A DNA stretch of 22,183 nt, from IMG/VR virus record IMGVR_UViG_3300024054_000543, positions 1 through 22,183 of that record, one strand, 5' to 3'. Source of the DNA: a virus. This document shows positions 3,416 through 22,183 of this stretch, in pieces. A program made the position numbers and the translations under genes. Position 1 is the first letter of the stretch. Each line of letters begins with the position of its first letter. The notes beneath the pieces were generated by a model. The model was not told the origin of the DNA, searched no databases, and saw only the letters and a list, made by a program, of their open reading frames with translations.

Positions 3416-5733
3416 GGCGCGCGCACCTCGACCAGCGGCACGCTCGCAAGTTCGCCCGCGAGGAAGGTCGCGCGGCTGACCTCCAGCCGGTCCTCGGCAA
3501 AGCGTACCGGCACGTCGAACAGATAGCCGGCCCGCACCGCGATCCCCGGCCCCGGCGGGGCGTCGAGCAGCACCTCGCCCTCGTCCGTCACGGCGAACGC
3601 CGCCGTCTCGATCCCGTCGACCGATACCCGCACGCTGCCCCCGACCGGCAGGCGAATGCTGCGCACCTGCATCGCATCGCCCGCGCCATAGCGCTTCACC
3701 AGCGCGAACTGCCGCCGGCTCCCGTCGCCGACGCCCAGCAGTTGGTCGCCGGGGCCCGGCAGCCCGCCATCCGCGGCCGAACCATGATCGAACGGATCGC
3801 GGAAGCGAAACGCCCGCGCCGCACCGCGCCGGGCGCGAAAGAAATCGGCGAGCGCGCGCACGTCGCTCTCGGAGCGCACCCCCGGCCCTGCGTCGTAGCG
3901 CATCCGCGCCTCGGCCCATTCGCTCGCACGCTGTTCGTGCCCCGAGGGCGAGCTCACGATCTGGGTCGAAAATTCGGTTACGACCATTGCCTCGCGCCCG
4001 ATCGCGAGCGGAAAATCCACCGCATCATAAGCCTGCACCACATCCTCCCCGTCAAAGTGCACGAACCCGTCGCGCGCGACCTGCGGCAGTGCCCAGATGA
4101 ACGTCCTCGCCACCCCTGCACGCCGCGCCGCATCGGCGGCGTCGGCGATCGCCGCCCAATGGGCGCGATCTTCGCCGCGCAGCACGAAGCCCGAAAAATA
4201 ATGCTGCTCGTGGGCCGGATAGCCCAGCCGCTCCGCCATCGCCGCCCGCGCCCCCGCAGTTTCGGCGCCGCCCCCGCCGGTCACCCAGTCATAATCCTCA
4301 AGCTGCAGCACATCGAAGGCCGGCGCTGCCCACGCGGTCGGCACGTTGGCCCGCCGCACCTCGGGCGCCGCCGCATCGAGTACGGTCGGCAGATAGACGA
4401 GCAAATGGCTCGCCAGCCCTGCGGCTCCGGCTTCGTCGCGCGCCGCCGCCACCAGCGCCGCGGTCGACGCCGCGAGCAAGCCGCCCAGCGCATCGAGCAT
4501 CGCCCGCTGCGGCGCGGTGAGCGCCCCGCGCACATCGGCAATCGCAACGCTCGCGCTTCCCAGCATCGCCGTCGTCGCCGCGTCATAGGCGCAAAGCCGC
4601 CCGCCTTCGCCGACCCACCACCAGGGTTCGCCGACCTGGAACTTTACTGCCAGTCCTGCTTCGACAGCGATCGCCACGAACCCCCGCGCGACAAGCTGCA
4701 GCCATCCCATCGCCTCGGCGTGGGCAGGCGACAGCAAGGTCGACGGCGGCGCCCACCCCGTCAGCGCCGGCGCGCCCGCGCTGTCCCGCTGCTTCCACGC
4801 CTCGGGGCAATAGGCATCGAACAGCTCGTAGGAGAGCGACCAGATGACGCCCAGCCCGGCCGCCCGGCACTCTGCCGCGAACGCCCGGTGCCACGCGGCG
4901 CACGGCGCGTTGAGCGCCCCGCCCGCGACGCCGACCTTCAGCGCTCCGCCCGTTACCGCGAGCCGCATGAAGTGGCTCATCCCGACATAATGGACGATAT
5001 CGCCGCGATAGCCGAGATGGATGGCCTGCCGCACGACGCGCGCCGGGGTCAGATGATATTCGTCGTCATAGCCGCTTGCGATCCCCAAGCCTTGTTCGGG
5101 CAACACTGCATCGCCGATCGCGAGCACCGATCCCGACCCGCTGCACAGCATCTCGCTCATCTCCGCCCAACCCTCGGCGGGCGCGGCGAGCAACCCGGCG
5201 CTTCCGTCATAGGTCGGGGCGACGAGCGAGATGAACATCCGGTCGACGTCGCCCGCCCATACCGGGTCGGCCTCACCGGGCAGGAGGAAGCCGCCGGCGA
5301 GCGTATCGAAATCGAGCGACACCACGGCATCCTCGGCCGACCCGACCGCATAATTCCACAGCCGCACATACCAGGCGCGCGGGTTTCCCGCCGCGTCGCG
5401 CCCTTCGATCGTCAGCGTCGGTCCGTGCAGCGCATCGAGCGGCTTGATCCCGCCCGAACGCCAGCGGAAGCGGAGCTGGGTGTGCCGGAAATCGCGCCGC
5501 GTCTCATAGGCGAGCAGCGGATGGTCCCAGCGATCCTCGGCCTCCCAGATCAGCCCCGCCAGATCCTCCCTGTTGTGGAACACCGCCTCGACGCGCAGCG
5601 TCTGTGTGTCGGGCGTCACCACGCTCGCCATCATCGGCCGCGCGAAATCGACGGTCCAGAAGCGCGGGTCGAAACGCTTCACCCATCCCTTGCGATGATG
5701 CGGCTCGGCAGCCGCGACGAGCGCCCAGCCCAT
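3409..5733 (-). CDS. Tail-sheath TIM-barrel / DUF2460 fusion, gp12-like
   Basis: A 774-residue protein starting at an ATG that shares one base with the tape-measure stop (TGATG). The last ~210 residues are a DUF2460 (TIGR02217, GTA gp12 distal-tail) domain: FPLAIGREAMVVTEFSTQIV, then ARMRYDAGPGVRS and RAFRFRDPFDHGSA. In Rhodobacter that domain is the whole protein, about 200 residues. Here about 560 residues precede it. Residues ~1-180 look beta-rich (KGWVKRFDPRFWTVDFARP onward). Residues ~180-560 look like a TIM barrel (YRGDIVHYVGMSHF, GVIWSLSYELFDAYCPEAW, VKFQVGEPWWWV, FDVLQLEDYDWV). This resembles proteins annotated as non-contractile tail sheath proteins. It probably forms distal tail/baseplate structure; enzymatic activity on sugars is possible but not shown. 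The domain split is my reading of the sequence, not a search result. Confidence 0.85.
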   Translation of the reverse strand: MGWALVAAAEPHHRKGWVKRFDPRFWTVDFARPMMASVVTPDTQTLRVEAVFHNREDLAGLIWEAEDRWDHPLLAYETRRDFRHTQLRFRWRSGGIKPLDALHGPTLTIEGRDAAGNPRAWYVRLWNYAVGSAEDAVVSLDFDTLAGGFLLPGEADPVWAGDVDRMFISLVAPTYDGSAGLLAAPAEGWAEMSEMLCSGSGSVLAIGDAVLPEQGLGIASGYDDEYHLTPARVVRQAIHLGYRGDIVHYVGMSHFMRLAVTGGALKVGVAGGALNAPCAAWHRAFAAECRAAGLGVIWSLSYELFDAYCPEAWKQRDSAGAPALTGWAPPSTLLSPAHAEAMGWLQLVARGFVAIAVEAGLAVKFQVGEPWWWVGEGGRLCAYDAATTAMLGSASVAIADVRGALTAPQRAMLDALGGLLAASTAALVAAARDEAGAAGLASHLLVYLPTVLDAAAPEVRRANVPTAWAAPAFDVLQLEDYDWVTGGGGAETAGARAAMAERLGYPAHEQHYFSGFVLRGEDRAHWAAIADAADAARRAGVARTFIWALPQVARDGFVHFDGEDVVQAYDAVDFPLAIGREAMVVTEFSTQIVSSPSGHEQRASEWAEARMRYDAGPGVRSESDVRALADFFRARRGAARAFRFRDPFDHGSAADGGLPGPGDQLLGVGDGSRRQFALVKRYGAGDAMQVRSIRLPVGGSVRVSVDGIETAAFAVTDEGEVLLDAPPGPGIAVRAGYLFDVPVRFAEDRLEVSRATFLAGELASVPLVEVRAPW

Positions 5734-7257: not shown

Positions 7258-7593
7258 ATGCTGATCACGGCCTTGTTGTTGGCAACCGCGGCACCGGCGG
7301 GATCCGGCAGCGTCGACACGACGCGCGCCGCCTTCACCAAATGCCTGCGCGAGCACATGAAGAAGTCGCTCGAAGCCAAGATGGGCGAAGCCGAATATGA
7401 AATGTCGCTGAAGGGCGCGTGCGACAGCGAACGCTCGGCCTTCCGCGCCGCGGTCACCGCCGCCAATCGCGCCGCCGGCGATTCCGCCGCCGATGCCGCC
7501 GAAAATGCCGACATGCAGGTCGAGGATTATCACGCGAACTTCACCGACAAGTTCAAGGACTATTCCTCGACGGGAACCATGCCGGGCGATTGA
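7258..7593 (+). CDS. Small exported hypothetical protein
   Basis: A 111-residue protein with a short hydrophobic N-terminus (MLITALLLATAAPAG) that reads as a signal peptide, probably cleaved after an Ala around residue 12-14. The mature part is helical and charged, with two cysteines (KCLREHM and GACDSER) that could form a disulfide in the periplasm. The C-terminus is acidic. Similar small secreted proteins with this Cys spacing are, to my recollection, frequent in sphingomonads with no assigned function. It is transcribed against all surrounding tail genes, so it is probably a passenger and not a structural component. The ATG follows a GGAGAAGCAGG site. Codon use is GC-rich and similar to the neighbours, arguing against very recent foreign origin. 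Confidence 0.7.
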   Translation: MLITALLLATAAPAGSGSVDTTRAAFTKCLREHMKKSLEAKMGEAEYEMSLKGACDSERSAFRAAVTAANRAAGDSAADAAENADMQVEDYHANFTDKFKDYSSTGTMPGD

Positions 7594-7693
7594 GCGGCTC
7601 CACCCTGCAACGCCGCCGCACCGACCCGATTGTCCGGTTCGGCGCGTCGGCGCCACCGCAATCCTTCCGCTCGATCCTGCCAAGGGACATATC

Positions 7694-8134
7694 ATGCTCC
7701 TGCTCGCGGCACTTGCCTTGCTCACCCCGCCCGGCCCATCCGGGCTGGGCGAGTTCCGCCCCCCGGAGGAAATGCTCGAGTTCGACTTCGAACGGGGCGA
7801 CGCCCCGTCCGACGACGGTGGCGAGGATGAAGGCGAAAAAAAGGACGAAAAGGGCAACAGCAAAAAGGTCCAGGGTTCGCTGACGGTCCCGACCACATGG
7901 TCGACATCGACGTTCCTGGGGATCGTGCGGCAATGCGGCGGAAAGCAGCTCAGCGCCACCTCCCTCGCTGGAAACTGGATCACAGTATCGGGCGCTCGGA
8001 CCGCCAACGACCTCGAAATTGCACGCTGCGTGCAGGCCTCGACCTCCGTCCGCTTTTTCGTCAAGGTTAAGCGCCGCGCGCAGGGAGGAGTAACCTATTA
8101 CGACCAGCCCTTTCGCGAGCTTTGGGACCGCTGA
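7694..8134 (+). CDS. Exported hypothetical protein with acidic/Lys low-complexity linker
   Basis: A 146-residue protein. I chose the ATG at 7694 because an AAGGGA site lies about 8 bp before it and because it starts a hydrophobic leader (MLLLAALALLTPPGP); the frame is open further upstream. Residues ~25-60 are low complexity (GDAPSDDGGEDEGEKKDEKG), followed by a compact domain with two Cys (IVRQCGGKQL and IARCVQAS) that may be disulfide-bonded. It is the second gene of a plus-strand pair, 100 bp after the first, and converges on the DUF3168 gene (56-bp gap). Function unknown; I do not recognise the family. The shared export signal and orientation suggest it works with, or was acquired together with, its neighbour. 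Confidence 0.62.
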   Translation: MLLLAALALLTPPGPSGLGEFRPPEEMLEFDFERGDAPSDDGGEDEGEKKDEKGNSKKVQGSLTVPTTWSTSTFLGIVRQCGGKQLSATSLAGNWITVSGARTANDLEIARCVQASTSVRFFVKVKRRAQGGVTYYDQPFRELWDR

Positions 8135-13373: not shown

Positions 13374-13410
13374 GCCATGCGGCAGAAAGAGATTGTTAAG
13401 CAATAGGTTA

Positions 13411-13424
13411 CGCGAAGTTGTTCC
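13411..13424 (+). repeat. Left copy of the 14-bp element-end inverted repeat
   Basis: CGCGAAGTTGTTCC is perfectly repeated in inverted orientation at 18730-18743. This copy lies 45 bp inside the left junction and just before the first recombinase gene. In an excised circle the two copies would flank the attP core as arms about 46 bp apart, which suggests recombinase or accessory-factor binding sites. Confidence 0.75.
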
Positions 13425-13438
13425 TCTAGAAAGAGGAG
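13421..13438 (+). promoter_or_regulatory. Hairpin sequestering the Shine-Dalgarno of the first recombinase gene
   Basis: TTCCTCT (13421-13427) pairs with AGAGGAG (13432-13438) across an AGAA tetraloop: six Watson-Crick pairs plus a terminal G-U. The right arm contains AGGAG, the ribosome-binding site located 7 bp before the ATG at 13446. Folding would hide it and limit recombinase translation. The hairpin's left arm overlaps the 14-bp inverted repeat. Confidence 0.55.
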
Positions 13439-13445
13439 CAAGTCA

Positions 13446-14702
13446 ATGCAAGCAAATGGCTATCTGCTACCAGCTAATGGAGCCACGAATCATGCTCAAG
13501 CCCGATCCGGTGATGGGCGTGGGAGTGGTGAAAAGGCAAAGCCGAGCAGTCGAGTTCGGCTCAACGGCAATATCGTTCGGCGTAAACCGGGCAAGCGTAT
13601 CAGGGAGTATTGGGATATCGACCTGCCGGGCTTTGGCCTGCGGGTAAATCCGGGCGGCAGGCGGACATGGTTCGTGCTCTTCCGCCAGCGCGGCAAGCTG
13701 CGGCGCGTGTCGTTAGGAACCTCCCGTGACATCTCGCCCGCCACTGCCCGCCGCCTCGCGCGGGCGAAGCTGGCCGAAGTGGCGCTCGATGGGTTGCCGA
13801 CGCGCAAGAAGGCCCGCGCCGCGCAAAGGAGCGATGCGCCCCTGCTGCGCGACTACGCCGAACGCTTCTGGGCTGACTATTCGCGACACTGGAAACCATC
13901 GACCCGCAAGCGCAATGAGAGCGCCATTTTCAAGGAAATCCTCGGCGCGTTCGGCGACCGGCGGGTCGACGATCTGGCCAAGGGCGACATCCTGTTTTGG
14001 CGCGACAGCTTTGTCGAACGCCCCGGCGTGTTCAACCGCACCCTGCCTGTGTTCTCTGTGATGATGGGCTATGCCGAGCGCCTTGGTCTGCGTCCGCGTG
14101 GCTCCAATCCCTGCAAAGGCACGCCCCGTTACAAGCGTAAACCGATGGAGCGATTTCTGTCGCCACACGAATATTCGCGGCTTGCCAAGGCATTGCGGGA
14201 CTACGAGGCGGAGCAGCCGCTCTATGTCGCGGCGATCCGCCTCTTGATCTTCACCGGCGCGCGCTGCGGGGAGATCGAGCAACTGTGCTGGGAATGGGTG
14301 CAGGAACCGCGCTTAATGCTGCCTGACAGCAAGACCGGCGCGAAAATTGTCTATCTCAACCGGCAAGCCGTGGATTTGATCGCAGGCCTACCGGACCGGA
14401 AAGCAACCGGCCTGCTGTTTCCCTCGTTCCGCAATCCCGACAAGCCGATCACGCTTGGTATTCACTGGTCGAAAATCCGCAACCGCGCGGCCCTGCCGGA
14501 TGTACGCCTACATGACCTGCGGCACAGCTTCGCATCAGTCGCAATCCGCGACAACATCTCGCTGATGGTGATCGGCAAGCTGCTGGGCCACGCGCTGGCA
14601 GAAACGACGACCAGATATGCCCATCTGTCCGACGAGATCGTCGCCGATGCGGCGGAGCGCGTATCCAGCTCTATCGCGCGCCTGATTGGAGTCGGGCAAT
14701 GA
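13446..14702 (+). CDS. Tyrosine recombinase/integrase 1 (DUF4102-type arm domain)
   Basis: A 418-residue site-specific tyrosine recombinase. Residues ~40-125 form the arm-type DNA-binding domain of the DUF4102/P4-integrase class (DIDLPGFGLRVNPGGRRTWF and RVSLGTSRDISPATARRLAR). Residues ~130-230 are the core-binding domain. The catalytic domain is complete: Arg near 272 (FTGARCGEIEQL), Lys in DSKTGAKIVYL, His-x-x-Arg near 355-358 (LHDLRHSFAS), His near 381 (LLGHALAETT) and the Tyr nucleophile near 391 (TRYAHL). It should cut and join the GCACACC core in the portal gene. The start ATG has AGGAG 7 bp upstream. Its stop overlaps the second recombinase as ATGA, so the two are made together. Confidence 0.93.
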   Translation: MQANGYLLPANGATNHAQARSGDGRGSGEKAKPSSRVRLNGNIVRRKPGKRIREYWDIDLPGFGLRVNPGGRRTWFVLFRQRGKLRRVSLGTSRDISPATARRLARAKLAEVALDGLPTRKKARAAQRSDAPLLRDYAERFWADYSRHWKPSTRKRNESAIFKEILGAFGDRRVDDLAKGDILFWRDSFVERPGVFNRTLPVFSVMMGYAERLGLRPRGSNPCKGTPRYKRKPMERFLSPHEYSRLAKALRDYEAEQPLYVAAIRLLIFTGARCGEIEQLCWEWVQEPRLMLPDSKTGAKIVYLNRQAVDLIAGLPDRKATGLLFPSFRNPDKPITLGIHWSKIRNRAALPDVRLHDLRHSFASVAIRDNISLMVIGKLLGHALAETTTRYAHLSDEIVADAAERVSSSIARLIGVGQ

Positions 14703-15940
14703 ACGCGCTGACCCTGCGGGGAATCGTCGCCGAGGAGCTGGGCAGCCTCAAACTCCATGTGATTGGCAAGTGCGGTGGCCTGGACGAGCTGCGCAAGACC
14801 TGCTGGACGCGCGAACTGCCCGGCTTCGGGACGCGGCATTATGCCAGCGGGCGCAAGGTCTACATCGTCCAGGCACGGATGGAAGGGCGAACGCGCACGG
14901 TGACGATCGGCAATGCCAAGGTATTGAGCCGTGCGCAGGCAATGGATGTAGCGCGCCGCGTGCTGCTCCGTGCCCAGACCGGCGAGAATCCGGCGGAGGA
15001 GCGCAAGCGGCTCCGCAAGGTTCCGTCCTACCGGGACTTCCTCAAGACCTATTGGGAGCGCGTGTCGCCCAAGTGGAAACCGTCCACGCTCTACACCCAC
15101 CGCTACTACAAGCGGAAATATCTCGACCGCGCGTTCGAAGGCCTATTCCTCGATGAGATCGAAGAACGCCATGTGCAGGAGTGGTTCAACCGGATTAGCA
15201 ACACCGGCGGTCCCGGCGCTGCCAACCGTTGCGGCGAAATTCTGCGCGCCATGTTCAACAAGGCCGAGCAATGGGGCGTTCGGCCCGAAGGCTCGAACCC
15301 CTGTCTCTACATCCGCAAGAACAAGGGGCGGAAGTGCGAGCGCTTTCTGTCTGATCAGGAGTTCAGGCGGATCGGCGAAGTGCTCGACCGGCATGGCAAA
15401 ACCTTCCCGCTGCATTGCGCGGCGATCAGCCTGCTGATCCTGACCGGCTGCCGCAAGTCGGAGATCACCTGCCTCAAATGGAGCGAGGTGCGGGGAAGGC
15501 GCTTGTTGCTAACAGACAGCAAGACCGGCCCGCGCACGGTCTGGCTGGCCGAGGCGGCGGCGACCATCCTCCACGCGCTGCCGCGCCGGGAGAAACAGCG
15601 TTACGTGTTCTGGAACCCGGCCACCCAGCGTCCGATCACCGATATCGGGAACCTTTGGAGCAAACTGCGCGACGAAGCAGGCCTACCCGGTGTTCGCATT
15701 CATGACCTGCGGCACAGCTTTGCCAGCCACGCCGCCGCCCGTTCGGAAACGCTGCCGATGATCGGCAAGCTGCTTGGCCATGCCGATGTGCGGACGACCA
15801 CCCGCTATGCCCATCTTGACGATGGGCACGTCATCGAGGCAGCGCAGCGCATCGGCGACCAGATCGAGCAAAACATGAGCGGCTCATATTCATTGAGCCG
15901 TAACACTAAGTATGATAGTGGGCCGTTGCTGCATGACTGA
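14699..15940 (+). CDS. Tyrosine recombinase/integrase 2
   Basis: A 413-residue second tyrosine recombinase, overlapping the first by 4 bp (ATGA). The architecture is the same: an N-terminal arm domain (TRELPGFGTRHYASGRKVYI), a core-binding middle (YWERVSPKWKPSTLYTHRYY) and a full catalytic set: Arg in LTGCRKSEITCL, Lys in DSKTGPRTVWL, IHDLRHSFASHAA, LLGHADVRTT and TRYAHLDD. The two proteins are clearly diverged paralogues, so one is not a recent copy. Tandem recombinases of this kind may act as a heteromeric pair or on different arms of an asymmetric site. The last ~20 codons also contain operator-like dyads and a promoter-like site for the toxin gene. Confidence 0.93.
   Translation: MNALTLRGIVAEELGSLKLHVIGKCGGLDELRKTCWTRELPGFGTRHYASGRKVYIVQARMEGRTRTVTIGNAKVLSRAQAMDVARRVLLRAQTGENPAEERKRLRKVPSYRDFLKTYWERVSPKWKPSTLYTHRYYKRKYLDRAFEGLFLDEIEERHVQEWFNRISNTGGPGAANRCGEILRAMFNKAEQWGVRPEGSNPCLYIRKNKGRKCERFLSDQEFRRIGEVLDRHGKTFPLHCAAISLLILTGCRKSEITCLKWSEVRGRRLLLTDSKTGPRTVWLAEAAATILHALPRREKQRYVFWNPATQRPITDIGNLWSKLRDEAGLPGVRIHDLRHSFASHAAARSETLPMIGKLLGHADVRTTTRYAHLDDGHVIEAAQRIGDQIEQNMSGSYSLSRNTKYDSGPLLHD
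15880..15920 (+). promoter_or_regulatory. Putative autoregulated promoter/operator of the toxin-antitoxin operon
   Basis: Two dyads lie side by side in the 3' end of the second recombinase gene: CGGCTCA-TATTCAT-TGAGCCG (15880-15900, 7-bp arms) and CACTA-AGTATGA-TAGTG (15904-15920, 5-bp arms). Both have 7-bp spacers. The second contains TATGAT (15911-15916), a good -10 hexamer about 17 bp before the toxin ATG; the -35 (around TTCATT) is weak. The layout suits binding of the XRE antitoxin, alone or with toxin. Confidence 0.5.
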
Positions 15941-16331
15941 GAACCCGCGCATCCGCATCTACGCCAACCGCTGGTTCGCCAAGTTCGCGGCAAAGGAAAA
16001 GATCGGCGATGCCACGCTTGCTGATGCCGTGCATCGGGCCGAATCCGGCCTGATCGATGCCGATCTTGGCAGCGGCCTGATCAAGCAACGCATTGCGCGC
16101 CAGGGCGGAGGCAAGTCGGGCGGTTATCGCTCGATCCTGATCTTCCGCTCGGGCGAGCGGGCCATATTCGTGTTTGCCTTCGCCAAGAGCGACAAAGCAA
16201 ACCTGAGTGCGGCGGAACTGAAGGTCTATCGCAAGGCGGCCGGCATCATGCTGGAACTACGCGATGACCAAATCGAAACGGAAGTTGAAGCAGGCCGATT
16301 GGTCGAGGTGAAAGACGATGAGCAAGGCTAA
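15933..16331 (+). CDS. RelE/HigB-like type II toxin
   Basis: A 132-residue RelE-superfamily toxin of the PF06296 kind. The characteristic middle is LIKQRIARQGGGKSGGYRSI followed by LIFRSGERAIFVFAFAKSDK. Members are usually ribosome-dependent or free mRNA endonucleases that stop translation when the antitoxin decays. I chose the ATG at 15933 (MTENPRIRIY) because the family begins near there and the TATGAT box lies just upstream; the frame is open seven codons further. No clear Shine-Dalgarno is present, suggesting modest expression. The gene order is toxin first, as in HigBA, with the antitoxin overlapping by 14 bp. The pair probably stabilises the element by addiction. Confidence 0.87.
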   Translation: MTENPRIRIYANRWFAKFAAKEKIGDATLADAVHRAESGLIDADLGSGLIKQRIARQGGGKSGGYRSILIFRSGERAIFVFAFAKSDKANLSAAELKVYRKAAGIMLELRDDQIETEVEAGRLVEVKDDEQG

Positions 16332-16647
16332 GGCAAAGACCTACAAAAGCGAAGCGATGGCCGCCGTCCACGAGATGATGGAAGGCCTTTACGGCGCGGG
16401 CAGCATCGACAAGCGCACCATGCGCGAGTTCGATGAGGCCTGCCTTGCGCCTGCGCCGGTTCTGTCACCGGACGAGATCAAAGCGATCCGCGAAGCGGAG
16501 CATGTCTCGCAGCCGGTGTTCGCGCGCTATCTCAACGTGTCGAAGAATCTCGTTTCCGACTGGGAGCGCGGCGCGAAGAAGCCGGGAGGACCGGCACTGC
16601 GGCTGCTGTCGATCATCCAGCGCAGCGGGCTGGATGCGGTGGCGTAA
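16318..16647 (+). CDS. XRE-family HTH antitoxin (HigA/NadS-like)
   Basis: A 109-residue antitoxin. The C-terminal ~55 residues are an XRE/Cro-type helix-turn-helix: LSPDEIKAIREAEHVSQPVF then ARYLNVSKNLVSDWERGAKK. The N-terminal ~50 residues (KSEAMAAVHEMMEGLYGAGS onward) are probably the toxin-neutralising part. It should bind the toxin and repress its own operon, plausibly at the dyads just before the toxin gene. Its ATG lies within the last codons of the toxin gene (14-bp overlap), so the two proteins are translationally coupled. It is the last gene of the rightward element operon. Confidence 0.9.
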   Translation: MSKAKAKTYKSEAMAAVHEMMEGLYGAGSIDKRTMREFDEACLAPAPVLSPDEIKAIREAEHVSQPVFARYLNVSKNLVSDWERGAKKPGGPALRLLSIIQRSGLDAVA

Positions 16648-16699
16648 GCCGGGACAATTGCCACGCCACATCTCTAGCCAGCCCCCTAGTCCTGTCCGG

Positions 16700-17989
16700 T
16701 CAGCGGCACGTAGTGATTGTGCCGATGGTGTTGCAGATGACCTTGTTTCCGCCCGGAGGGGTGATGGGTTGCACCTGAGGTGGTTGCCAGCTTTGCACTC
16801 CCTGTAAAGTCTGCTGAGTTTGCTGTTGGAGCTGTCTGTTGGCTTGGCTGATATCGTTCCACGCCTGCTGATTCCGCTGCTGCTGCACCATGTATTGTTG
16901 CATCGCTATTTGCTGCTGAATCTGGCGCTGCTGTTCAGCAGTAGCGGCTCTCTGCTGCAAGCTTTCAAGCTGCCTTTGGTAATTTGCCGAGGCCACGGCA
17001 TAGGGTTCCTTGAACTGGTCTCTCCAAGTGCAGATCTTGGTGTATTCGGTCTGGTCCAAACCACGGACGCTGCCTTTCCCATTGCAGGCCTTATACAGGT
17101 ATTCGCGCTCGATTTGCTGCGCGCGCTGGAGGGTCGAACTGGCGCTCGCAGTTGCCGTTGCAATCTCCTGATATTTTGCCTGCAAATGCTCGGTGTACGC
17201 GGCTGGCAACCTGACCGGCTCCGGCCTCCCGTTGACGCGTTTGAAATGAGCGACGGCTCCATTTCCATATCGTGCAATAGCAACACCGCCCGGTGTATTG
17301 GTCTTCGGATCGATGATTTCGATAGCGAAGGTTGCCGCGTTGGGATTAACCACTGGCGCAGCCGAATTATCTGAAAATTTGAACGCTAGAGCGCCATAAT
17401 TTTGCGTAAGCAGATAATTCCGCTGCGGGTTAAACGCTGCGCTTTGAATGATGTAGCCGTTACCCTGCCCGTCGATGACGCTCAGGGTTTGAAGCGCGTT
17501 AAACCCGTTGATCGAGTTGTCCATTTTTTCGGCGAGTTGGGTCACTGCGGGGAACTGCGATCCACCGACTGCATAGACCACCATGTTGTTGACGAAATCA
17601 TAGTCTACTCGCGGGGCGGACCAGTCGCCTCCCGTGCCGTCGTGGATCGTGATCTCTTCCACATGATGGGTATCAGACATTGCAATGTCGCGACCTAGCC
17701 CAAAGGCAAAACCGTTCCGACATTCGCCGTCCCAATATGCACGGAAGTTAGACCGTTCGAGCTGATCCCGAGTAGTCGGCAACTTGCACGGCTCGGTCTT
17801 GTTGGCGGGCTGAACGTAAAGCTTCTCAGGGGGAGGAGGAGCCGCTGCCGGTCTGGCTAGCAACGACCTCTCGAACTCTGAAGCCTCCTGATAGTTGATC
17901 GCCTTGGGCTTGGAACCGGCATATGCCGAGGTCGTGCACGCAACGACGCTCGCTATGGACACCAGGTAGGAAAGTTTCCGCATCTTCAT
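16700..17989 (-). CDS. Exported Q-rich protein of unknown function (element cargo)
   Basis: A 429-residue protein. The N-terminus MKMRKLSYLVSIASVVACTT is an export signal. VVAC fits a lipobox (Cys18) and AYA before GS25 fits signal peptidase I, so it is either an outer-membrane-directed lipoprotein or a periplasmic protein. Residues ~85-105 (RAYWDGECRNGFAFGLGRDI) resemble a MORN-like turn motif. Residues ~275-395 are a long glutamine-rich coiled-coil (ATAEQQRQIQQQIAMQQYMV). It ends with a compact Cys pair, VICNTIGTITTCR, a tail I recall in other alphaproteobacterial exported proteins. The ATG has GGAG upstream and overlaps the preceding gene's stop (ATGA), so the two form an operon convergent with the toxin-antitoxin genes. 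Composition is less GC-rich than the GTA genes, consistent with transfer. Function unknown. Confidence 0.8.
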   Translation of the reverse strand: MKMRKLSYLVSIASVVACTTSAYAGSKPKAINYQEASEFERSLLARPAAAPPPPEKLYVQPANKTEPCKLPTTRDQLERSNFRAYWDGECRNGFAFGLGRDIAMSDTHHVEEITIHDGTGGDWSAPRVDYDFVNNMVVYAVGGSQFPAVTQLAEKMDNSINGFNALQTLSVIDGQGNGYIIQSAAFNPQRNYLLTQNYGALAFKFSDNSAAPVVNPNAATFAIEIIDPKTNTPGGVAIARYGNGAVAHFKRVNGRPEPVRLPAAYTEHLQAKYQEIATATASASSTLQRAQQIEREYLYKACNGKGSVRGLDQTEYTKICTWRDQFKEPYAVASANYQRQLESLQQRAATAEQQRQIQQQIAMQQYMVQQQRNQQAWNDISQANRQLQQQTQQTLQGVQSWQPPQVQPITPPGGNKVICNTIGTITTCR

Positions 17990-18489
17990 TTCATCTCCGT
18001 CCGATAAATGCGTTGCAGTGCATTTATCGCCTTTTCCAATCGCTCATTGAGGGACGTATTCGGTCCGTTTTGCCCAGTAGGAAAGACGCTGTCCTCGCGC
18101 AGTTGATGCACGATGTCATGGACTTCTTTCACATCCGCGCGCCCTCTCGCGGGCACCATGCCTTCGAGCACAAGAACACTATGCTTTACCTCTGCAATTT
18201 TCTGTTGAAGCCCGATCACGTCCTCGTCCGCAGCTCCAAACACCGGCTGACCCGCGAGCGTTTTCAAATAGTAAAGTTGCTGCAAGAGCTTAACAATTTG
18301 CTCTATGCTCGCAGCCTTCAGCAGTGAATTTCTTTGGAAAGAAAACGTGCTTTTCGCCACCCAACAGGCGGCGATGGCTGCGATTGCGGAAGCCAATGCC
18401 GCAACCGTCTGCAATGCCGTAGAGCAATCAGTCATCGTCTGTTTTGGAGCCCCAAATTCTAGAAACATCATCGGTTTAGTCAGCGACAT
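17986..18489 (-). CDS. Small single-pass membrane protein with helical cytoplasmic domain (element cargo)
   Basis: A 167-residue protein if begun at the ATG at 18489, which has AGGA 5 bp upstream. Starts at 18435 (MTDCSTALQT) or 18546 are possible. One transmembrane helix is evident (LQTVAALASAIAAIAACWVA), followed by a charged, helical C-terminal domain (NSLLKAASIEQIVKLLQQLY; VHDIVHQLREDSVFPTGQNG) probably on the cytoplasmic side. It is coupled to the exported Q-rich protein by ATGA. The pairing of an inner-membrane helical protein with an envelope protein suggests a two-component envelope function such as exclusion or defence, but no motif proves this. Composition is low in GC relative to the cluster. 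Confidence 0.65.
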   Translation of the reverse strand: MSLTKPMMFLEFGAPKQTMTDCSTALQTVAALASAIAAIAACWVAKSTFSFQRNSLLKAASIEQIVKLLQQLYYLKTLAGQPVFGAADEDVIGLQQKIAEVKHSVLVLEGMVPARGRADVKEVHDIVHQLREDSVFPTGQNGPNTSLNERLEKAINALQRIYRTEMK

Positions 18490-18729
18490 GCCGATCCTGC
18501 AAGGGCAGATGACTGATAAAAATTCGGGCTGCCTGCGACTCGGCATCGCGAGTTCGAGTTCCGGACGAAGTGATGTCCAGGTGCTACAAAAATCGCATCA
18601 TGCGCAGTGTTGGACATCGCAGGGAGGCTATCTCTCAAGCGCCGAATGGGCTAGGAAATCCGCGTGAAACCAAGGCCTTTGCCACCAAAAGTTGGGCGGG
18701 GAAGTGGTCGATCACAACGGTCCAAATAG
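18490..18729. other. Non-coding right end of the element with nested inverted repeats
   Basis: No supported gene lies in these 240 bp. They hold GATGTCCA (18572-18579) and its perfect inverse TGGACATC (18611-18618) around a 31-nt loop. Inside the loop is the palindrome CGCAT-c-ATGCG (18594-18604). The region presumably contains the promoter of the leftward cargo operon; I could not find a clear -35/-10 pair. The structure could be an operator, an accessory recombination site or chance. Confidence 0.4.
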
Positions 18730-19598: not shown

Positions 19599-20234
19599 CT
19601 ATGTTTTCGGAGTATTTTTCGGACGATAGTCTCGCTTGTCGACGCATTGATCATAAAGCTGGCGATCCAGCTTTATCCAATCCGTTTTGTCGATTCCCCT
19701 GACTCGGAATGCTGGGCTATGCGGAAAGGCTGATGCCACCTTTATCCAGCGATTCTGTTCTTTCGCGATGATACGTATCTCATCGGCAACCTCGATCAGG
19801 TCCTGATCTCGACAGAACAATATCGCGACGTCGAATTCCCGTTTTAGCGCTAGCCGAATGACATCGAGAGAAATGCGAACATCAATGCCCTTCTCGTCAC
19901 CATCGAGAAATGAATGCTCGGTTCCATCGGGCAGTCTGACGATCTTGTTGCGGTAACGCAGCGGTCGCGTAAAAACATACACGCCCTCTCGCCCCATCTG
20001 TGCTGCCTTGGCATTCCAGAAATGATTCCAGAATGGTTTGTCGGCAGCGTCTGGCACACCCGTATAAAATCTTGTTTGCTGTAGCTGCCAGCCCTGGTCA
20101 GCGCAAACCCGCTCAGCCAATGCCTTCGGATTGAAATTAGGCCAAGTGTATCCAAAAGCTTGCTTTGCCGAATGAAAAAGATTCTGCCCATCGAAAAAGG
20201 CGACGGCGCGAATCAACGGCAATTGCTCTGTCAT
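19599..20234 (-). CDS. NYN-domain (LabA/DUF88-like) nuclease
   Basis: A 211-residue protein of the NYN family, a PIN-like fold with RNase activity in many members. The acidic active-site residues are in place: Asp15 in VAFFDGQNLF, the EKGIDVRISLDV motif with Asp118, and Asp143/Asp145 in FCRDQDLIEVADE. It lies between terminase and portal, where GTA clusters normally have no gene, and its codon use is much less GC-rich than both neighbours, indicating acquisition. No strong Shine-Dalgarno precedes the ATG. A GTTC-N7-GTTC site begins 6 bp upstream, so expression may be LexA-controlled. Its stop TAG is part of the portal Shine-Dalgarno, tying portal translation to it. Its role could be abortive defence or RNA turnover after DNA damage; the substrate is unknown. 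Confidence 0.85.
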   Translation of the reverse strand: MTEQLPLIRAVAFFDGQNLFHSAKQAFGYTWPNFNPKALAERVCADQGWQLQQTRFYTGVPDAADKPFWNHFWNAKAAQMGREGVYVFTRPLRYRNKIVRLPDGTEHSFLDGDEKGIDVRISLDVIRLALKREFDVAILFCRDQDLIEVADEIRIIAKEQNRWIKVASAFPHSPAFRVRGIDKTDWIKLDRQLYDQCVDKRDYRPKNTPKT

Positions 20235-20239
20235 AAACA

Positions 20240-20254
20240 GAACATGTCAGGAAC
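20240..20254 (-). promoter_or_regulatory. Candidate LexA/SOS box upstream of the NYN gene
   Basis: On the minus strand the site reads GTTC-CTGACAT-GTTC, an exact match to the GTTC-N7-GTTC consensus of alphaproteobacterial LexA. It ends 6 bp before the NYN start codon, where bound LexA would block the promoter. TTGCAA lies 17 bp before ATGTTC, a possible but weak -35/-10 pair overlapping the box. A single exact match somewhere in 22 kb is not rare by chance; the position in a short promoter gap is what supports it. Confidence 0.6.
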
Positions 20255-20284
20255 ATTGCTTTTTGCAAAGCCCAAAATGAATAA

Positions 20285-20318
20285 CCCCGCCGGAGGCCTT
20301 ATGGCGTGTCCGACGGGG
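20285..20318 (-). terminator. Probable hairpin terminator after the large terminase gene
   Basis: CCCCGCCGGA (20285-20294) pairs with TCCGACGGGG (20309-20318), with one mismatch in ten, and an inner GCC-TTAT-GGC may stack on it. On the minus strand the stem is followed by TTATTCATTTT, a loose U-rich run. It lies in the 156-bp gap between the terminase stop and the NYN start, and could separate the transcription of the packaging genes from NYN and portal. Confidence 0.5.
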
Positions 20319-20390
20319 AAGAAGTTAATGAGCGTGAAATAGGAGATGTCCAATTAACGTCAAGTGAAAATTATCCCGTCAGGACAATTT

Positions 20391-21701
20391 CTATATCCGC
20401 CGCACCCCCGGCCCTTTCCCCTTCCGCCGCCCCTCCAGCAAAGCCGCCAGCGCCCAGACGCATGCATCCGCCCGATCGGGCGAGCGTCCCGGCCCCGCAT
20501 AGCCGCCGCCGATCTGCAACCCGCAAAGCTGGTCCTCAAGGCTCGCGAACACCCCCGCATGCACCACATCGCCGCGCTCATAGGCGATCGCGACCGGCTC
20601 CGCGCGCCGCGCCTTGCCGACGCTCGCATGCACCGGCACCACCGGCAGCGTGCAGTCGGCCTGGCGCAGCGTCGCCGCGACCATGTCGCCGCCCATATTG
20701 CTCTCGGCGACGATCCGGTCGGCGCCCCGGCGCGCCGCCGCCGCGGCGACCGCCTGCGCCCACACCCCCGGCAGCGGCGTCTCGACGCTCGCATCCTCGA
20801 CCACCGCCAGCCGCCCGTCGCGCAGCAAGGCCGCGACCACGATCCCGCACGCATCGCCCCTGCTCGTCGCCGGCGGATCGACGCCGATCACCACGCGCAC
20901 CGGCTTGCCGATCGCGTCCTCGGCGATCCGGCACCGCTCGACCAGCGCCCGCGTCCACAGCGCCCCCTCGATATCCTCGAGCAATTCGCCGTCCAGTTCC
21001 TGCCGCCCCAGCCGCGTGCCGGCATAGATCGCATCCATCGTCGCCAGCCATTGCGGCGACAAATTGTGGCGATTGTTACGCGTGCTCCCGCCCGTCGTTT
21101 CGACACCCTTCTCGGTCATCAATCGCCGCACCAGCGGCACGCCGCGCGGGGTGGTCGTCGCGACAACGCGCGGGTTATCGCCGATCCGCATCGTCAGCAT
21201 CAGATTGTCCCACGCCGCCTCGCCCTGCGGCCATTTGGCGATTTCGTCGCACCAGGCGGCGCTATGCTCGGGGCCGCGGAGGCTGTCGGGCTCGGCGGCC
21301 GAATAGAGGGTCGCGACCGTGCCGTTCGCCCAGCTCAGCCGCCTCAGGCTGCTCTGATACTCGGGGCGCGCCGCGTCGGGCGCGATCGCCAGCACGCCGC
21401 TCTCGCCCTCGACCATCACCTGCCGCGCCTCGTGCAGCGAGGCTGCGACCAGCGCGATCCGCGCGCCCGGATGCGCCTCGGCATAGTTCCGCACCCACTC
21501 GGCCCCCGTCCGCGTCTTCCCGAAACCGCGCCCCGCCAGCAGCATCCAGACGTGCCAGTCGCCCGCAGGCGGGCACTGGTCGGCGCGCCGCCACCAGCTC
21601 CAGTCGGTGAGCAGCCTTGCCGCGCTGTCGTCGCCGATCCGGCGCCCCCAGGCCACGAAATCGGCGGGCGACATCCGCAGCAGCTCGTCGAGGCTTTTCA
21701 A
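20391..21701 (-). CDS. Large terminase subunit, GTA gp2-like
   Basis: A 436-residue packaging motor. The ATPase half has Walker A GRGFGKT (residues 57-63), the Walker B region WCDEIAKW and a coupling motif VVATTTPRG. The nuclease half has the acidic sites GVDPPATSRGDACG, ESNMGGDMV and DRADACVWALAALL. It should fill heads with DNA and cut it. I chose a TTG start at 21701 because it overlaps the stop of the preceding gene (TTGA) and follows an AGAGGA site; the ATG at 21674 (MSPADF) is the conservative alternative. The open frame above 21701 overlaps the small terminase gene and is not coding. Confidence 0.94.
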   Translation of the reverse strand: MKSLDELLRMSPADFVAWGRRIGDDSAARLLTDWSWWRRADQCPPAGDWHVWMLLAGRGFGKTRTGAEWVRNYAEAHPGARIALVAASLHEARQVMVEGESGVLAIAPDAARPEYQSSLRRLSWANGTVATLYSAAEPDSLRGPEHSAAWCDEIAKWPQGEAAWDNLMLTMRIGDNPRVVATTTPRGVPLVRRLMTEKGVETTGGSTRNNRHNLSPQWLATMDAIYAGTRLGRQELDGELLEDIEGALWTRALVERCRIAEDAIGKPVRVVIGVDPPATSRGDACGIVVAALLRDGRLAVVEDASVETPLPGVWAQAVAAAAARRGADRIVAESNMGGDMVAATLRQADCTLPVVPVHASVGKARRAEPVAIAYERGDVVHAGVFASLEDQLCGLQIGGGYAGPGRSPDRADACVWALAALLEGRRKGKGPGVRRI

Positions 21702-22183
21702 GACGCGCCATCCTCTTTTTCGTCGGCGCCGCCTTCCTCCGCCGCGACCTGGGCCCGCATCGCGGTCAGTTTCGCGAGCAGTCGGGCCTTCGCATTCCCT
21801 TTGGGCGCGGCCCCGGCCGCCGGGAGCATCGCGCCGCGCACCGCCGCGCGATGCGCCGCGAGCAGCGAGAGCCCGAGGCGATATTTCTGTGCCCGCGATT
21901 TCAGCGTCGCTTCCTTCACATTCCCCGTCGGCGCGATCAGCGCCTCGGACAGCAATTCGGCCTCGAGCCGGGCGAACCCTTCGCACAACGCCTCGTGCCA
22001 GCGCGCCGCAAAGCCGGTGTTGCGCCGCCGCTCGCGGTACATGGCATTCGCCGAAACCCCCGCCGCCCGCGCCGAGGCCGCGACATTCGAGGATTCGGCC
22101 AGCGCCTCGAGGAAAATATCCTTCTGCCGGCGGTCGGGACGGGGATTCCCGCTGTCGTCCGTCGCCGTACCCGCCCGTCCCAT
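21698..22183 (-). CDS. Small-terminase-like DNA-packaging protein, GTA gp1-like
   Basis: A 161-residue protein beginning with an ATG at the last bases of the window, so an upstream extension cannot be excluded. Residues ~17-75 form a helix-turn-helix (QKDIFLEALAESSNVAASAR, then AGVSANAMYRERRR) like those of small terminases that recognise or hold DNA. The remainder is helical, with a basic stretch (KSRAQKYRLGL) and an acidic tail (EEGGADEKEDGAS). Position immediately before the large terminase, with a 4-bp overlap, fits GTA gp1. In GTAs this protein supports packaging without strict sequence choice; that is family knowledge, not visible here. Confidence 0.85.
   Translation of the reverse strand: MGRAGTATDDSGNPRPDRRQKDIFLEALAESSNVAASARAAGVSANAMYRERRRNTGFAARWHEALCEGFARLEAELLSEALIAPTGNVKEATLKSRAQKYRLGLSLLAAHRAAVRGAMLPAAGAAPKGNAKARLLAKLTAMRAQVAAEEGGADEKEDGAS

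Follow-up and report, generated by a model that had tools for sequence, protein, structure and literature searches.

The window, a 22,183-base record from IMG/VR, carries an NYN-domain gene preceded by a conserved hairpin RNA and a LexA-type box. We interpret these parts as a mobile two-part cassette in which a structured RNA would restrain an NYN ribonuclease, with a LexA switch added between RNA and nuclease in Sphingopyxis, and we place the probability of this interpretation at roughly 0.55. It is favoured because AbiF-RCd22 and type III toxin-antitoxin systems show the same order of promoter, RNA, terminator and nuclease.

On the minus strand of the window, family and domain matches identified an RcGTA-like cluster with terminase, NYN, portal, capsid and tail genes in order (Table 1). 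The tail genes contain NCTSP, DUF2460, NlpC and Rcc01698_C domains, in agreement with the GTA setting given in a preliminary description of this DNA. The portal reaches only 312 aa, compared with 368–381 aa in three Sphingopyxis loci where it is intact (L001, L002 and L008), because an element with recombinase and RelE genes has been inserted; the first 3.3 kb of this element are 90% identical to an Aurantiacibacter plasmid. Elsewhere in the cluster, two plus-strand ORFs (7258–7593 and about 7493–8134; region 7258–8134) run against the GTA gene direction and are possible inserted genes.

Table 1. Features of the window and their coordinates.
Feature	Position	Strand	Remark
GTA terminase large subunit	20391..22181	(-)	reading-frame extent, start not fixed
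P1 -35 element, TTGACG, inside TTCACTTGACGTTAAT	20358..20363	(-)	near-invariant in seven aligned loci
P1 -10-like element, TATTTC, 16-bp spacer	20336..20341	(-)	same elements in L001 and L008
Predicted small RNA: 5' single strand, hairpin, U-rich tail	20272..20329	(-)	predicted ends
Conserved terminator-like hairpin: 10-bp stem, 3x1 internal loop, 3-bp stem, 4-nt loop	20285..20318	(-)	
Possible second promoter P2 (TTGCAA, 16 bp, CATGTT)	20241..20268	(-)	putative, weak hexamers; overlaps LexA box
LexA-type (SOS) box, GTTCCTGACATGTTC	20240..20254	(-)	exact match
NYN-domain protein, 211 aa, predicted ribonuclease	19599..20234	(-)	sister to PADLOC HEC-09
GTA portal, truncated to its N-terminal 312 aa	18651..19589	(-)	
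Inserted element splitting the portal gene	13380-18650		
Two tyrosine recombinases in the element	13446-15940		
RelE-family toxin in the element	15912-16331		
HTH protein in the element (RelE/HTH pair)	16318-16647		

The assignment of the gene to the NYN family was borne out. Its product matches Pfam PF01936 (E=7.5e-9, 36.7 bits against a cut-off of 24.2), and residues D15, D118, D143 and D145 are invariant in 28 sequences. A fold search returned an NYN-like fold, with 2qip as the best PDB match and weak matches beyond it, while sequence searches of solved structures and of the INPHARED phage collection gave no match to the protein. A scan of bacterial genomes yielded 38 relatives, mostly of 40–95% identity and distributed over many phyla; hosts of the subfamily include Alphaproteobacteria, Verrucomicrobia, Planctomycetes, Deltaproteobacteria and others.

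Alignment of the non-coding region from the window and six viral-collection loci revealed that the most conserved stretch is not the box but an upstream block (TTGACGTTAAT) together with the hairpin (CCCCGYCGGACACGCC-loop-GGCCTCCGGCGGGGTTATT). The hairpin had been mentioned before and is indeed present, but it is far from incidental. Across the NYN subfamily the layout is almost always promoter, hairpin RNA of about 50–60 nt, terminator and NYN, with the hairpin located 14–85 nt before the matched NYN start in nearly all relatives. In the family hairpin, a 3x1 internal loop separates a 10-bp stem from an upper stem of 3 bp, whose cap is in most cases a GNRA or UUCG loop; a UUAUU(U) tail follows. 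Covariation among 35 sequences amounts to 20 double-change cells, compared with 4.5 (sd 1.8) after shuffling, and to 8 pairs compared with 2.7; the signal is register-specific and collapses on shifting the register by a single position. A covariance model of the RNA, R1, matches the window at 20276–20334 with 73.4 bits (its E-values are approximate). No Rfam covariance model, including that of the AbiF ncRNA (RF03085), matched the hairpin RNA above chance; it is previously uncatalogued and absent from Rfam. The possibility of an ordinary terminator was rejected, as background matches in the two genome sets described below score 27–38 bits, and those that were read have neither the 3x1 loop nor the upper stem.

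The R1 RNA was present in 36 of 37 NYN genomes, usually as one copy per genome. Only two of 349 Sphingomonadales genomes exceeded 31 bits with R1; both scored above 70, and close NYN members are present in exactly these two genomes. The other matches read in this order are plain terminators. When 388 genomes of the Verrucomicrobiota phylum were searched with R1 and no protein query, all four matches above 55 bits adjoined an NYN gene, three of them representing new NYN loci, and one match of 37.6 bits was an ordinary terminator without NYN. Two divergent Sphingomonadales NYNs (L130 and L131) have no such RNA, which counts against an RNA-restrained nuclease.

A conserved terminator hairpin could also be a cis attenuator and nothing else. 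In that case the leader terminator would keep NYN low until opened by a signal, which may be antitermination in phage infection or the NYN protein binding or cutting its own leader, and the RNA would have no function in trans. Such an attenuator would agree with the hairpin and U-tract lying directly 5' of NYN in nearly all loci and with the usual single copy per genome. We regard it as rather unlikely, given that sequence conservation in the internal loop and the 5' single-stranded part exceeds the needs of a terminator and that the RNA is also found apart from the nuclease gene. A Hyphomicrobiales MAG carries several copies that all have a promoter and terminator of their own and of which most do not lie before NYN, and in an Acidobacteria MAG (L037) the RNA is intact although an opposite-strand gene lies between it and NYN. 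These cases, few in number and from draft genomes, hint at an independent action of the RNA; against the RNA-restrained interpretation, the few copies without NYN are either decayed or in one MAG. The decayed ones come from a Phycisphaerae MAG (G079), where two extra copies have broken stems and NYN is lost; the idea that they mark another target gene was therefore rejected. The Hyphomicrobiales MAG also contains an array of several related small RNA genes of two types (L103:1-570 and L104:6975-9960), situated near N6-adenine methylase-like ORFs.

The box had been described as driving NYN. The family promoter, however, precedes the hairpin, some 125 bp farther upstream, and relatives that have no box share it. 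TTGAC-type promoters precede the hairpin in NYN relatives, and a promoter score of at least 9 was observed before the hairpin in 26 of 40 loci, compared with 16% of shuffles. A consensus promoter scan did not report P1, so the promoter assignments draw on conservation and on this enrichment before the hairpin. Just upstream of P1, an inverted repeat (AATTATCC-CGTCA-GGACAATTT, 20369–20391) is kept in all five Sphingopyxis loci and could be either a terminase terminator or an operator.

The exact LexA-type box reported at the NYN start was confirmed on the minus strand, where GTTCCTGACATGTTC (20254–20240) is followed by TGTTT and the NYN ATG (20232–20234); the gap is thus 5 bp and not the 6 bp given. 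The window contains two occurrences of the spaced motif GTTCN7GTTC where 0.5 would be expected, and 10 of 100 shuffles reach two, so that the motif alone is weak evidence. The other exact occurrence, inside a tail gene at 3779–3793, is probably due to chance. In three Sphingopyxis genomes, GTTCN7GTTC was identified upstream of lexA (GTTCCACTATCGTTC, or GTTCCTCTATCGTTC in S. indica), recA (GTTCCCCTCTTGTTC) and uvrA (GTTCCAGATTTGTTC), in line with the alphaproteobacterial SOS consensus invoked earlier, and a further site precedes an imuA-like gene, named from its start sequence only. At Sphingopyxis lexA the box overlaps a likely -10 element, and a few bases separate the box from the ATG, which is the same layout as at NYN. 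A sharper genus consensus, GTTCMN5TGTTC, has 22, 18 and 22 sites in the three genomes compared with 4, 2 and 3 for the reversed control (5–9-fold). These sites include the NYN box and those of recA, uvrA and the imuA-like gene, and near-identical sites (GTTCCTGATATGTTC) recur in Sphingopyxis genomes.

Five distinct Sphingopyxis NYN loci were available: the window, L001 (identical to L007), L002, L003 (identical to L004 and L009) and L008. All five keep GTTC-M-TGACAT-GTTC with 14 of 15 positions invariant, as related loci of one genus and not as independent events, and the box stays fixed next to a diverged spacer on its hairpin side. Looking for the box before NYN homologues, a check proposed in the preliminary description, thus succeeded within the genus but not beyond it: no LexA-type box was found upstream of any NYN relative examined outside Sphingopyxis, other alphaproteobacteria included. 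A chance GTTCN7GTTC, or the site of another regulator, would leave NYN outside SOS control and could appeal to the frequency of the spaced motif in the window and to this absence. We consider it improbable, since the box fits the sharper genus consensus and occupies one place in five diverged loci. Because of this shared regulon motif and fixed position, we take the box to be, with high probability, a genuine LexA site, and the comparison of loci indicates that it is a lineage-specific addition in Sphingopyxis; its absence elsewhere led us to reject the idea that the box belongs to the NYN family in general. In relation to the alphaproteobacterial LexA regulon, the motif is common to the NYN box and to lexA, recA and uvrA of Sphingopyxis, whereas the NYN target differs in being an accessory mobile gene.

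According to the RNA-restrained interpretation, the cassette would have been inserted between terminase and portal of the GTA cluster, where P1 would constantly make a short structured RNA ending at its own terminator hairpin, and a small read-through past the hairpin would yield the NYN mRNA. NYN would be a metal-dependent ribonuclease, bound and restrained by the RNA as in AbiF-RCd22 and type III toxin-antitoxin systems. LexA at the box would block an NYN-only promoter, P2, or else the read-through, and since the box lies after the RNA terminator, derepression would raise NYN and not the RNA. After DNA damage, NYN could then be made without matching RNA and become active. Transcription from P2 may start at the ATG and the NYN mRNA would then be leaderless, which would fit the lack of a Shine-Dalgarno sequence before the gene in the window. 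The hexamers of P2 are weak, and weaker still in L002 and L003, which argues against this part of the proposal.

The box might instead mark an SOS-controlled GTA or prophage gene, tying expression of NYN, portal and capsid to DNA damage. This would suit the position of NYN between terminase and portal, the conservation of the box in Sphingopyxis and the portal Shine-Dalgarno, which adjoins the NYN stop as had been described. The contact between stop and Shine-Dalgarno makes SOS read-through into the portal possible where the portal is intact (L001, L002 and L008). In the window the portal is broken, so the suggested rise in portal and capsid output is unlikely from this locus and is conceivable only in such relatives. 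In most genomes, moreover, the cassette is found outside GTAs, usually as a lone gene beside unrelated neighbours, and we consider an SOS-controlled GTA gene very improbable. By placing a terminator between terminase and portal, the cassette would lower, and not raise, uninduced GTA output. The proposed link to gene transfer is therefore weak, the cassette being mobile, mostly outside GTAs and accompanied here by a split portal.

Several cassettes were observed in defence contexts. Two lie inside Hma operons, in the order HmaC-RNA-NYN-HmaB (L031) and HmaA-RNA-NYN-HmaB (L023, with an interrupted NYN reading frame), and two lie between the Mod (methylase) and Res (restriction) genes of type III R-M systems (L040 and L041). 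The PADLOC family HEC-09, an Hma-embedded candidate, gives a partial match to the window NYN (E=8e-10, 36.7 bits, residues 9–161). HEC-09 shares with the cassette an NYN protein and the Hma context seen in L031 and L023. HEC-09 proper, a distant plasmid-borne NYN family, matches over its full length with 146–158 bits, so that it scores about 150 bits compared with 35–48 bits for the window subfamily, and its leader RNAs differ in sequence from the window type. HEC-09-family matches occur in 448 plasmid records, a minority of which was inspected; in most of the members that were read, NYN follows a promoter-like stretch, hairpins and a terminator. An E. coli plasmid (NZ_CP122630.1, L175:1037-1164) carries a promoter, four 33-nt tandem hairpin repeats and a terminator ahead of a HEC-09 NYN, an arrangement that by its sequence is the classic type III layout; the annotated CDS takes in the array, and its start is probably misannotated. 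A 5.4-kb Klebsiella plasmid (L176) has a repeated GCGATTAAGTTACGC motif 5' of NYN and a terminator directly before the start. Two further HEC-09-type genes (L132:1351-1420 and L134:1420-1500) carry a different two-hairpin leader RNA with compensatory changes between both, and a search of viral contigs with the L134 NYN gave no relative.

NYN/PIN-like RNases are common and mostly unexplained. The nearly constant pairing of a covarying RNA with one NYN subfamily across phyla, together with the HEC-09 hairpin repeats, would make these loci testable as RNA-protein toxin-antitoxin or defence modules and may explain HEC-09, an unexplained defence candidate whose relatives are carried by plasmids in the hundreds, enterobacterial ones among them. 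Sphingopyxis, as environmental bacteria that can be cultured, would offer a naturally occurring form that may be SOS-inducible. More tentatively, the window subfamily and HEC-09 may together form a new class of modules in which a ribonuclease of the NYN type is restrained by an RNA, with the Sphingopyxis LexA switch placed between antitoxin RNA and toxin and DNA damage shifting their ratio. A search of open papers other than preprints found no pairing of NYN with an antitoxin RNA.

Among known systems, AbiF-RCd22, an Abi_2 system of a C. difficile prophage, has an RNA that limits read-through and that binds and neutralises the toxin protein (PMC12373285). It shares with the NYN cassette the order promoter, structured ncRNA, Rho-independent terminator and toxin gene, and its prophage location and single protein gene are further likenesses (PMC12373285). 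It differs in its Abi_2/Cas13-related protein and two abiF motifs (RF03085), whereas the protein of the window cassette has an NYN fold, its RNA is a different one with a single hairpin, and the Sphingopyxis form adds a LexA box. In type III toxin-antitoxin systems (ToxIN, CptIN and TenpIN), as here, RNA and ribonuclease genes share a promoter with a terminator between them and are mobile and defence-linked; the sequence places the RNA 5' of the putative toxin in the same way. Against this assignment, and against the RNA-restrained interpretation, a single hairpin is found in the window and its relatives in place of tandem repeats, which appear (fourfold) only in the HEC-09 plasmid L175, and the protein has an NYN/PIN-like domain and fold and not that of the ToxN, CptN or TenpN endoribonucleases. 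The closest regulatory parallels are tisB-istR and symE-symR of enterobacteria, type I (antisense) systems in which LexA-controlled toxins are paired with a constitutive RNA antitoxin. The logic proposed for the Sphingopyxis cassette is the same, with an RNA that is always made and a toxin promoter under LexA, but in tisB-istR and symE-symR the RNA is antisense, whereas here it would act on the protein.
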